Part shown: one piece after another, positions 34,471 to 38,436 of the stretch
Numbering within the stretch: the first letter of the stretch is position 1
Layout of the letters: each line of letters begins with the position of its first letter
Assembly: GCF_000712075.1 (NCBI RefSeq)
Contig: NZ_JONW01000006.1
Coordinates: 372,001 to 436,000, forward strand
Reading direction: 5' to 3'
DNA: 64,000 nucleotides
Source: Caulobacter sp. UNC358MFTsu5.1
Lineage (GTDB): Bacteria; Pseudomonadota; Alphaproteobacteria; Caulobacterales; Caulobacteraceae
The notes under the pieces: model-generated
Told to the model about the DNA's origin: nothing
The model's input: only the letters and a program-made list of their open reading frames with translations
Database searches by the model: none
Program-made: the position numbers and the translations under genes

Positions 34471-35706
<1,236 letters not shown>

Positions 35707-35727
35707 TCGCTCTTCAGGAACGAACGG

Positions 35728-35757
35728 AAAGGGGTCGCGAAAGCGGCCCCTTTTTCG
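35728..35757 (+). terminator. Rho-independent terminator of sucB
   Basis: AAAGGGGTCGC (35728-35738) pairs with GCGGCCCCTTT (35743-35753), one T-G wobble, around a GAAA tetraloop, followed by TTTTTCG. Separates the TCA operon from vapBC. Confidence 0.93.
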
Positions 35758-35773: not shown

Positions 35774-35818
35774 TTGAGACGCGCGTGGATTTCATGTATC
35801 TATGACTTGTAGATACAT
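35774..35818 (+). promoter_or_regulatory. vapB promoter/operator palindrome
   Basis: ATGTATCTA (35794-35802) and TAGATACAT (35810-35818) form a perfect 9-bp inverted repeat with a 7-nt spacer. A possible -35 TTGAGA (35774-35779) is 17 bp from TATCTA (35797-35802) inside the left arm. The arrangement is what is known for VapBC autorepression, where the complex covers the promoter. It also shows that the ATG at 35803-35805 region is operator, not start, favouring the vapB ATG at 35829. Confidence 0.75.
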
Positions 35819-35828
35819 CGAGGTCGCG

Positions 35829-36098
35829 ATGACCAAGCTCGATATCCAGCCCCCCCGCGCCAAGCTCTTCACCCACGGCGGCAGCCAGGCCGTTCGCCTG
35901 CCCAAGGCCTTTCGGTTCGAAGGGACGGAGGTGACCGTCCGTCGCGAGGGCGACGCGGTGATCCTCGAACCGGTCGCCGCCAAGCCGCCTCGCACACAGG
36001 CCGATCTCGACGCGATGTGGGCCCGCATCGACGCGCGAGGCGGCGCCGACTTTCCGGACCGTGAACAGCCGCCCGAACAGGAACGGGAGTTCTGGTGA
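35829..36098 (+). CDS. vapB: VapB-type antitoxin (AbrB/SpoVT fold)
   Basis: An 89-residue antitoxin. The N-terminal swapped-hairpin DNA-binding part is read in [19 protein letters not shown] and the following [15 protein letters not shown] (about residues 10-48). The C-terminal tail, acidic and Trp/Phe-containing ([14 protein letters not shown]...REFW), would wrap the toxin. ATG at 35829 is used because the frame extension to 35802 starts within the operator palindrome. The gene overlaps vapC by four bases (GTGA). Confidence 0.88.
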
Positions 36099-36505
36099 GC
36101 CTGGCGTTGGACACCAACGTCTTCGTAGATCTCATTCGAGGACGGAAGGCGATCATCCGCCAGCGCCGGGACAGGGCGATCCTGGCGGGGGAAACCCTGC
36201 TGACCTCGCTGATCGTCTATCACGAACTACGGTTCGGCGTGGCGCTCAGCCGCGATCCGATCGGCGAGGCCTTGAACGTGGCCGAGGTCCTGGACGGTGT
36301 CGTCATCGAGCCGTTGAACGAAGACGATGTGACGGCCGCCGCCACCGTCAGGGCCAAGCTCAGACCGCATGGAAGTCCCGTCGGGCCCTATGACGTGCTG
36401 ATCGCCGGCCAGGCCCTGGCGCGCGGCTGGACGCTGGTCACCTCCAACGCCCGTGCGTTCTCCCGCGTCGAGGGCCTGGATATCCAGGACTGGAGCCAGC
36501 CATGA
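36095..36505 (+). CDS. vapC: VapC-type PIN-domain ribonuclease toxin
   Basis: A 136-residue PIN-domain RNase. The acidic Mg-binding residues are Asp6 ([12 protein letters not shown]), Glu44 (IVYHELRFG) and Asp100 ([11 protein letters not shown]), with the TSNARAF segment at 116-122 near the fourth position. Members cleave tRNA or rRNA; the target here is unknown. It begins with GTG overlapping the vapB stop, and its own stop overlaps the ATG of the next gene (ATGA), giving a three-gene translationally coupled operon. Confidence 0.9.
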
Positions 36506-36858
36506 CCGCCGCCCGCGACCGCCTCTTCCTCCTGCGCCCCGACTGGATCGACCAGGATCGGCCCTGGTTCTGCATGGCCTGCGCGGCGGTCGAGGGCTTC
36601 CTCGGCTACTATCCGGCGGTGCGCGAGGCGCTGGACGTGGCCTACCTGCCGTATCCGCGGCCGCGCCGTCCGGTGGCCGACCTGCTGGGCGAGGCGAACC
36701 AGAACCTCCCGATGCTGATCCTGGCCGAGCCGTTCGCGCATCCGGACCTGCGCGAGGGCGACCTGAACGAGGCCGGCGGCCTGTGGTTCGCCACCAACGA
36801 GGGGCCCATCACCCGCGTCCTGGCGGCGCGATACCGCGTCTCGCCGCCGCATCCCTGA
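36502..36858 (+). CDS. DUF3088 domain protein coupled to vapC
   Basis: A 118-residue protein whose layout matches DUF3088: RDRLFLLRPDWIDQDRPWFCMACAAVEGFL near the start, with a C-x-x-C pair (FCMAC), then PVADLLGEANQNLPMLILAEP and GLWFATNEGPITRVLAARY. The LLRP..., C-x-x-C and later strand pattern suggest a thioredoxin-like or glutathione-transferase-like fold, but that is inference. It overlaps vapC by four bases, so the two must be translated together. No known toxin-antitoxin role for this family is recalled. Confidence 0.75.
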   Translation: MTAARDRLFLLRPDWIDQDRPWFCMACAAVEGFLGYYPAVREALDVAYLPYPRPRRPVADLLGEANQNLPMLILAEPFAHPDLREGDLNEAGGLWFATNEGPITRVLAARYRVSPPHP

Positions 36859-36919
36859 GGTCGAGGCGGCGCAAACGCACAAGACGCCGCTGACCGAGGC
36901 TTTTAACGCACCTGTTGGG

Positions 36920-36947
36920 TTGATCCTTAAGGCAGAGGCGCTAGGAG
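36920..36947 (+). promoter_or_regulatory. Candidate lpdA promoter
   Basis: TTGATCC (36920-36926), 13 nt, then GCTAGGA (36940-36946) agrees well with the published Caulobacter housekeeping consensus TTGACGS-N10-14-GCTANAWC. It is 89 bp ahead of the lpdA ATG and implies that lpdA is transcribed on its own rather than from vapBC. Confidence 0.5.
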
Positions 36948-37035
36948 TACCCCGCCCAGTCACCCTTGGGAAACCGGGGGACAGGCCCCATTTTCTGTCC
37001 GGCGCCGAACGCGGCGCGTCTCAAGGCGAAGATCC

Positions 37036-38436
37036 ATGGCTCAATACGACGTCGTCATCATCGGGGGCGGCCCCGGCGGCTACAACGCGGCGACCCGCGC
37101 CGGTCAGCTGGGTCTGAAGACCGCCATCGTCGAAGGACGCGGCAAGCTTGGCGGCACCTGCCTGAACGTCGGCTGCATGCCGTCCAAGGCCCTGCTGCAC
37201 GCCTCGGAGCTGTACGAAGCCGCCGTCGGCAGCGAGTTCGCCAAGCTGGGCATCGAGGTGAAGCCCAAGCTGAACCTGCCGCAGATGATGGCCCAGAAGG
37301 CCGAGAGCGTCGAAGCCCTGACCAAGGGCGTCGAGTTCATCATGAAGAAGAACAAGGTCGAGTACATCAAGGGCTGGGGCCGTATCGACGGGCCCGGCAA
37401 GGTGGTGGTGAAGGCCGAGGACGGTTCGGAAACCGTGCTCGAGACCAAGAACATCGTCATCGCCACGGGCTCGGAGCCCACCCCGCTGCCGGGCGTGACC
37501 ATCGACAACAAGCGCATCGTCGACTCGACCGGCGCCCTGTCGCTGCCGGAAGTCCCCAAGAGCCTGATCGTGATCGGCGCCGGCGTCATCGGCCTGGAGC
37601 TGGGCTCGGTCTGGAAGCGCCTGGGCGCCGAGGTGACCGTGGTCGAGTTCCTGGACCGCATCCTGCCGGGCACCGACACCGAAGTGGCCAACGCCTTCCA
37701 GAAGATCCTCACCAAGCAGGGCTTCAAGTTCAAGCTGGCCTCCAAGGTCACCGGCGCGGCCGCGACCGACAAGCAGGTCAAGCTGACCGTCGAGCCCGTG
37801 GCCGGCGGCGAGGCCGAGACCCTGCAGGCCGACTACGTGCTGGTGGCCATCGGCCGCCGTCCCTACACCCAGGGCCTGGGCCTGGAGACGGTCGGCATCG
37901 AGACCGACAAGCGCGGCATGATCGCCAACGACCACTACAAGACCACCGCCCCGGGCGTCTGGGTGATCGGCGACGTCACCTCGGGTCCGATGCTGGCCCA
38001 CAAGGCCGAGGACGAGGCCGTGGCCTGCATCGAGCTGATCGCGGGCAAGGCCGGCCACGTGAACTACGACATCATCCCGGGCGTCATCTACACCTCGCCG
38101 GAAGTCGCCACGGTCGGCAAGACCGAGGAGGACCTCAAGGCCGCGGGCGTCGCCTACAAGGTCGGCAAGTTCCCGTTCCTGGCCAACAGCCGCGCCAAGA
38201 TCAACCACGAGACCGACGGCTTCGTGAAGGTGCTGGCCGACGCCAAGACCGACCGCATCCTGGGCTGCCACGCCGTGGGTCCCAATGTCGGCGACATGAT
38301 CGCCGAGATCTGCGTGGCCATGGAGTTCGGCGGCTCGTCGGAAGACGTGGCCCGCACCTGCCACCCGCACCCCACCCGCGCCGAGGCTTTCCGCCAGGCG
38401 GCGATGGGCGTCGAAGGCTGGACGATGCAGGCCTAG
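37036..38436 (+). CDS. lpdA: Dihydrolipoyl dehydrogenase (E3)
   Basis: A 466-residue FAD disulfide oxidoreductase that reoxidises the lipoyl groups of 2-oxoacid dehydrogenase complexes. FAD site [21 protein letters not shown] at the N-terminus; redox cysteines Cys42 and Cys47 in [19 protein letters not shown] site [17 protein letters not shown] (about residues 177-193); second FAD motif [21 protein letters not shown]; and the active-site HPHPTRAE near the C-terminus. It belongs functionally with sucA and sucB upstream, the vapBC-DUF3088 operon lying between. Confidence 0.98.

Follow-up and report, generated by a model that had tools for sequence, protein, structure and literature searches.

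A VapBC toxin-antitoxin pair that appears to regulate itself has probably been resident behind sucB since early in the family Caulobacteraceae, and in one lineage of five species it seems to have captured a DUF3088 gene as a passenger. We examined this arrangement in a 64,000-nucleotide stretch of the Caulobacter sp. UNC358MFTsu5.1 genome (the window), where a vapB-vapC-DUF3088 locus that is real and functional-looking occupies the gap between sucB and lpdA. The coupling of DUF3088 to the toxin gene is a local matter; of greater interest is the bond of vapBC to the sucB-lpdA region across the family. Gene order, overlaps, operator sequence, the VapC clade and the distribution of the genes are direct observations from the genomes compared. 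In the account proposed here, vapBC would be mostly inherited vertically and often lost, with its toxin part sometimes swapped.

All five genes lie on the forward strand. The left flank is sucB (34471-35706; PF00198, PF00364 and PF02817), which encodes the E2 component of 2-oxoglutarate dehydrogenase, and the right flank is lpdA (37036-38436; PF07992 and PF02852), which encodes dihydrolipoamide dehydrogenase, E3. Between them, vapB (35829-36098) specifies an 89-residue antitoxin with an AbrB/MazE-type DNA-binding N-terminus (PF04014, 39.8 bits; cut-off for the MazE/AbrB antitoxin family 24.7) that also reaches the curated VapB family antitoxin model NF040493 (61.1 bits, cut-off 60). This gene is followed by vapC (36095-36505), encoding a PIN-domain toxin of 136 residues (PF01850, 68.2 bits against 23.6), and by the gene for a 118-residue DUF3088 protein (36502-36858), which belongs to PF11287 with 103.7 bits against a gathering score of 26.4. 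The vapB start is an ATG at 35829 that is retained in the compared relatives, vapC begins at the GTG within GTGA (36095-36098), and ATGA (36502-36505) joins vapC to DUF3088, so that all three frames and both four-base overlaps described in the original prediction are present. An AbrB/MazE-type antitoxin followed by an overlapping PIN-domain toxin identifies the pair as VapBC. Four-nucleotide overlaps are common across bacterial operons generally; within the window these two are the only ones among 33 same-strand neighbour pairs delimited by a custom ORF caller trained on five window genes. Ratios of dN/dS against three related species (G035, G139 and G171) are 0.03-0.06 for vapB, 0.15-0.18 for vapC and 0.18-0.26 for DUF3088, and in these comparisons purifying selection looks to be acting on each gene; values against a fourth, G007, which carries a mosaic allele, are 0.18 for vapB and 0.40 for vapC. 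A comparison of the three proteins with the PADLOC anti-phage defence profiles returned nothing at E 0.01.

The gap was compared among 75 genomes of the genus Caulobacter. The sucB place was found in 71, window included, and the stretch behind sucB was covered in all of these, with lpdA falling outside the stretch in 11 and the contig of G023 ending just after sucB. Gaps with vapC number 16 of 71 and gaps with DUF3088 35 of 71, while only 12 hold both; DUF3088 is therefore without vapC in 23 of its 35 gap loci, and four Caulobacter gaps carry vapC without DUF3088. Only in five species does DUF3088 follow vapBC with the ATGA overlap (the window genome, G000, with G007, G035, G139 and G171). In G012 vapBC stands 307 nt upstream of DUF3088, and in six species (G030, G153, G095, G001, G258 and G211) the order is reversed to sucB-DUF3088-vapBC. 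The sister of G171, G021 (97/91), has the terminator and DUF3088 and no vapBC. Within Caulobacter gaps, DUF3088 is a resident in its own right. The original prediction had allowed that the coupling would be incidental if DUF3088 always stood next to lpdA in relatives without vapBC, and the frequency of DUF3088 without vapC together with the six reversed orders means that this is largely the situation found: most copies of DUF3088 at the locus have no vapBC, although lpdA is not in every case their neighbour. Across a set of Caulobacter gaps (L081-L150) we counted 12 protein clusters of at least two members, DUF3088, vapB and vapC among them; others appear by eye to be membrane-protein-like or to belong to two hydrolase families. 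These further gene families make the sucB-lpdA gap a variable spot generally. Comparison with the 123-bp gap of G002 as an empty site yielded no sharp boundaries because both flanks are different.

Beyond the genus, we searched the family in 199 genomes, 160 of them from other genera, using vapC and vapB profiles that were built from gap sequences and may miss distant relatives. Within the 75 Caulobacter genomes, the window VapC has as its 16 top-scoring matches exactly the 16 gap copies. Eighteen strong vapC matches from outside the genus were fetched, of which 13 lie downstream of sucB (with lpdA further on in 10) under six other genus codes and five lie elsewhere; as these loci were picked by vapC score and weaker matches were partly checked, 13 of 160 is a minimum. 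Altogether, seven genera of one family have 29 VapC proteins encoded downstream of sucB; at 26 of these loci lpdA lies further on, and 17 lack DUF3088. At the 28 loci with a recognised vapB, this gene starts 66 to 1271 nt behind sucB, so that "behind sucB" does not always mean adjacent. One branch (95/91) in a tree of 49 VapCs separates the 29 encoded behind sucB from the 20 from elsewhere. The comparison across the Caulobacteraceae thus places vapBC at this locus in seven genera and DUF3088 in the gaps of Caulobacter only, with no DUF3088 in 111 non-Caulobacter stretches behind sucB.

Evidence that vapBC has long been resident at this locus and has frequently been lost is good. VapC distances correlate with sucB distances (Mantel r 0.49, with 0 of 5000 permutations as high), also within Caulobacter (r 0.46; 2 of 5000 permutations), and the vapC tree shows partial genus clusters. 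Among 98 further non-Caulobacter sucB loci, chosen by sucB alone, none carries an intact vapBC on the sucB strand (lpdA was not found within the stretch in 28 of them), and five retain pieces of vapB or vapC (G226, G070, G207, G100 and G121); with a vapB piece in one Caulobacter gap, G158, there are six loci with pieces only. In G093, also among the 98, a vapBC pair whose VapC is of the other type by score (59.7 bits, with an internal stop) lies behind sucB on the opposite strand and was not counted.

The same data set a limit on simple descent. On a quick tree built from 181 sucB ends, intact vapC changes state at least 21 times, which is much for simple descent with loss and counts against the account proposed here; taken with a mosaic vapC in G007, it means that some exchange must be allowed for, and repeated exchange between species at the sucB locus is possible. 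A fuller alternative is that a locus-specific vapBC spreads sideways among the Caulobacteraceae by recombination in the sucB/lpdA flanks and is not maintained by descent. These state changes, the foreign middle set into a conserved frame in the G007 gene and the grouping of G221, from another genus, with Caulobacter VapCs (93/90) would fit such a history, whereas the tracking of host-gene distances, the partial genus clusters and the pieces left in place speak against it. We consider it on the unlikely side, and it is in any case compatible with DUF3088 as a passenger.

The wider context of the genes bears on their origin. A class-wide search, from which 30 of the 50 matches listed were fetched with 1.5-kb flanks, gave 29 loci other than the window, 28 beyond the family and one within it, all without sucB; in one of them (L323) the opposite strand carries an lpdA-like gene. 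The best-ranked plasmid vapC in a list of at most 5000 records is 43.8% identical and the best phage vapC 34.8% (5 records, all under 35%), and with identities this low a plasmid or phage origin of vapC was rejected. DUF3088 occurs in 39 plasmid records, 25 of them from Rhizobium, and in no phage record. To the original prediction, the three genes looked like a module dropped as a unit into a TCA cycle locus, and the GC3 values of vapB (0.82) and vapC (0.84) do lie below those of sucB (0.94) and lpdA (0.95). The GC3 of DUF3088, however, is host-like (0.933), DUF3088 occupies gaps that have no vapBC, the vapC clade spans seven genera, and neither the plasmid nor the phage matches listed include a close vapC. 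We therefore regard insertion as a unit as highly improbable: the tight gene set and its bounds hold up, while the dropped-in module does not, vapBC being bound to the locus in seven genera and DUF3088 being a separate gap resident. A three-gene insertion was also rejected on the leftover pieces.

Between the sucB terminator and vapB lies an operator-like palindrome, ATGTATCTA-N7-TAGATACAT (35794-35818), with a 19-bp core at 35797-35815 that reads TATCTA-N7-TAGATA. The interval of the original prediction, which begins at 35774, takes in this palindrome without mentioning it. The operator, with its 7-nt spacer, stands upstream of vapB at 23 of the 28 gap vapB loci (in G029 in a relaxed form) and by the pattern used is missing at the other five, a point against the proposed account; no other site occurs in the 182 loci read, which amount to 1.29 Mb. 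In its strict form it is present in 11 of the 75 Caulobacter genomes, once in each and always before the gap vapB, and a reversed control pattern has no site in the 75 genomes. With a single strict site per genome, VapB seems to target one place, its own promoter. This pattern speaks for autoregulation and against a wide VapB regulon; a wider regulon was rejected, as the strict operator has no second site in any of the 75 genomes. A putative operator palindrome at its own putative promoter also marks the pair as a VapBC system. VapB or the VapBC complex would accordingly repress its own promoter through the 19-bp operator. In the gap of G148 (L081), a 63-codon frame before vapC resembles, by eye, only the toxin-binding end of VapB, and neither the DNA-binding half nor the operator was found there; this may be an antitoxin without autoregulation.

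An intrinsic terminator follows sucB at 35726-35755 on the forward strand, with a 13-pair stem and a T run, although it is missing from the list of the built-in terminator scan. Similar hairpins occur in G035, G139, G171, G007 and G012, and one is visible in G021; a terminator after sucB was seen in all five coupled species as well as in G012, G030, G153, G095 and G211. None was seen at the Caulobacter vapBC loci of G001, G258, G029, G248 and G025, which also counts against the proposed account; at the 13 non-Caulobacter vapBC loci the scan, which covered up to 130 nt behind sucB, gave none. On the other side, lpdA has a leader of its own (36880-37035, forward strand) with the promoter-like elements TTGATCC (36920-36926) and GCTAGGAG (36940-36947), which we take to match a Caulobacter promoter consensus; this match is the sole basis of the promoter reading, and a sigma-70 consensus scan of the leader gave no site. 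The terminator and the separate lpdA leader of the original prediction are thus both in place, and its promoter comes down to elements resembling a Caulobacter consensus. The leader aligns over most of its length in five other species (G139, G007, G035, G171 and G021), and in 18 more the match is limited to the final ~50 nt. This final segment is matched in 23 other species in all, 22 of them Caulobacter. By eye, the leader contains stem-forming repeats; Rfam families gave sub-threshold matches near the locus, and none within the leader.

DUF3088 is not the only gene found immediately after the toxin gene. The next gene after vapC is lpdA in 11 loci; in eight of these its start is about 35 nt or less away from the vapC stop. 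It overlaps this stop in three loci, by ATGA in G087 and by 8 nt in G088 and G221, which carry three different genus codes, none of them Caulobacter. As the next gene starts at the vapC stop in several genera, coupling is a recurring layout of which DUF3088 is one case. In the five-species lineage, one mRNA would carry vapB, vapC and DUF3088, and ribosomes finishing vapC would re-initiate on DUF3088. With a shared mRNA and re-initiation, the amount of DUF3088 protein would follow the toxin level and would increase upon degradation of VapB. It may instead be that vapBC is a selfish element in a safe harbour and that a small deletion coupled it to DUF3088, with no regulatory meaning. The patchy distribution (16 of 71 Caulobacter gaps and, outside the genus, 13 of 160 genomes as a minimum), the leftover pieces and the hypervariable gap content are in keeping with such an element, and autoregulation alone would also keep the operator. 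A dedicated operator across genera and the recurrent overlap between vapC and the gene after it suggest more than this, and we find the selfish-element explanation rather doubtful.

The toxin itself carries an unusual active site in the window. VapC retains D6, E44 and D100, and residue 121, which aligns with E119 of the tRNA(fMet) VapCs and solved homologues, is alanine (codon 36455-36457), so that three of the four acidic positions (equivalents of D7, E42, D98 and E119) are kept. Among the 29 gap VapCs, D6 is found in 29, E44 in 28 and D100 in 28, while position 121 is E in 15, D in five, H in seven, G in one and A in the window alone. In BoVapC1, alanine at D7, E42, D98 or E119 abolishes growth inhibition (PMC8522696, in the portion available). 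For VapCs at large, the fourth position is given as D/N in the accessible part of a review (PMC7180214), so that E119 is not a universal feature. The window VapC may be weak or disarmed, because alanine stands where the studied homologue needs E119, and antitoxin control and passenger expression would then be what is left in this strain. Purifying selection on vapC sits oddly with a dead toxin, and a sequencing error in the codon for Ala121 is possible. The best solved-structure matches of VapC are members of the tRNA(fMet) group (best E 8e-17), although the scores fall short of two curated tRNA(fMet) VapC models, NF047863 and NF010285 (93.3 against 140 bits and 66.5 against 143). The G007 locus (L082) agrees with the window lineage in its operator, in the beginning of vapB and over the final ~100 nt of vapC, and the vapB tail with most of vapC is a different allele in a conserved frame, as if the specificity part had been swapped in place.

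An AlphaFold2 model of the DUF3088 protein computed from 25 sequences (pLDDT 90.6, pTM 0.86) gives the order strand-helix-strand-helix-strand-strand-helix of a thioredoxin-like fold, with C24-x-x-C27 at the start of helix 1 and Pro70 before the third strand. The C-x-x-C motif named in the original prediction is accordingly present and, in this model, lies at a thioredoxin-type active site. A second look through the PDB with the model gave a GST theta as best match (Z 9.2, 2.2 A over 79 residues), with SspA-like and DHAR chains among the others; Foldseek with the model and a comparison of the sequence with solved structures returned nothing significant (best E 0.031 and 0.046). Profile comparison by HHpred/FFAS places DUF3088/PF11287 in the thioredoxin clan near glutaredoxin 2 and GST-N, according to the available part of PMC3091736, and the fold is predicted to be thioredoxin/GST-N-like. 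C24 and P70 are invariant in both DUF3088 alignments (13 and 25 sequences). The C-x-x-C was found by pattern in 34 of the 35 gap copies and by inspection in the 35th (G239); among 33 DUF3088 proteins from other loci, 10 have Gly in place of the second Cys and read C-x-x-G. A second DUF3088 gene of the window genome lies outside the window (G000:C6:641877-642218); it is 39% identical and fits the Pfam model better (149 bits, against 103 for the gap gene). In G615 (L163/L164), a DUF3088 gene is split over two frames by an apparent frameshift.

Elsewhere, DUF3088 seldom stands beside a toxin gene in the loci read. Of 116 DUF3088 loci outside the gap, read with 1.5-3 kb flanks, none lies beside sucB or lpdA and one (L235) has a gap-type vapC match nearby. 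Upstream frames were picked mechanically from 111 loci, so that true neighbours may be missed; of 101 frames, 83 were scanned, near-duplicates being left out, and among the matches listed (the best 25 of 44 matched families) a PIN gene lies directly upstream by Pfam in one of the 83, again L235. A general pairing in which DUF3088 follows vapC is not borne out by these counts, and the upstream frames do not support DUF3088 as a usual toxin partner. The exception (L235 2564-3348, a Rhizobiales genome) is an independent vapC-DUF3088 neighbourhood, where 8 to 29 nt, depending on the start chosen, separate the end of an unrelated vapC from DUF3088. If DUF3088 were a true third component, a redox-sensing partner modulating VapB or VapC through its C-x-x-C, the ATGA overlap retained in five species, the purifying selection on DUF3088 and this second, unrelated vapC just upstream of it would be explained. 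Obligate partners are rarely so separable, however, as DUF3088 and vapBC are in the gaps where each stands without the other, in the six reversed orders and in the upstream frames elsewhere; the constant association of a third gene with the pair that would define a tripartite system is not seen. This explanation is improbable in our judgement.

The preferred reading, DUF3088 as a passenger, would place it outside the toxin-antitoxin mechanism, with thiol chemistry as its likely work, perhaps fed by the dihydrolipoamide of the neighbouring SucB/LpdA. This lipoamide-fed role is a guess from analogy, and both the 116 loci outside the gap and the C-x-x-G proteins count against it. The likeness to the AhpD-SucB-Lpd thiol relay (PMC6626918, from the portion available) is one of idea, a C-x-x-C protein drawing electrons from SucB/Lpd, and no sequence relation with AhpD is claimed.

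Comparison with described systems separates the familiar from the new. The tRNA(fMet) VapC group, as described in the accessible parts of the sources (Shigella/Salmonella VapC, PDB 3tnd; Bosea BoVapBC1, PMC8522696), shares with the window pair the antitoxin-toxin order and the overlap, and with the window VapC the PIN fold, the D7/E42/D98 equivalents and the best solved-structure matches. The window vapBC differs from this group in its fixed place downstream of sucB, the extra overlapping gene and Ala for E119, and its VapC in not reaching the curated tRNA(fMet) models. The DUF3088 protein has in common with the described family (DUF3088/PF11287, best PDB match glutaredoxin 2, 3ir4; available part of PMC3091736) the Pfam match, the predicted fold and the conserved Cys and Pro; what sets it apart from PF11287 elsewhere is the sucB-lpdA gap, occupied among the loci read in Caulobacter only, and the vapC overlap in five species. 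DUF3088 is merely listed in the portion of PMC12828279 that was available. Tripartite toxin-antitoxin systems such as TAC, as far as the accessible part of PMC9098466 describes them, also have a third operon gene; unlike there, DUF3088 and vapBC are mostly apart, and a required role for DUF3088 was not seen. In the accessible portions of the literature on vapBC with sucB/lpdA, Caulobacter VapBC, and third-gene, metabolic-operon or fixed-location toxin-antitoxin systems, we found none that names the locus. The parts are of known kinds; what looks new is the constant position of vapBC behind sucB, its single-site operator and its coupling to DUF3088 or lpdA.

The role of chromosomal toxin-antitoxin pairs is disputed, and here such a pair is tied to a single central-metabolism locus across several genera. 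Its operator occurs nowhere else in the searched genus genomes, and the next gene often starts inside or just behind the toxin gene. A natural misreading is also corrected, as the overlap alone suggested a three-part system. One speculative extension, to which we give only modest credence, is that vapBC serves as a metabolic switch, in which an autoregulated promoter and coupling at the vapC stop would set the output of the next gene, lpdA in several genera, whose E3 product is shared by the 2-oxoacid dehydrogenases, and the thiol protein in the window lineage; in the window the toxin would be disarmed and the switch kept. If this were true, stress that leads to VapB degradation would increase E3 or the thiol protein along with the toxin. 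The bond to the locus, the single operator and the closeness of the next gene mean that ordinary genetics in Caulobacter relatives could test a metabolic role directly, and they raise the question of whether toxin-antitoxin pairs can be recruited to switch metabolic genes.
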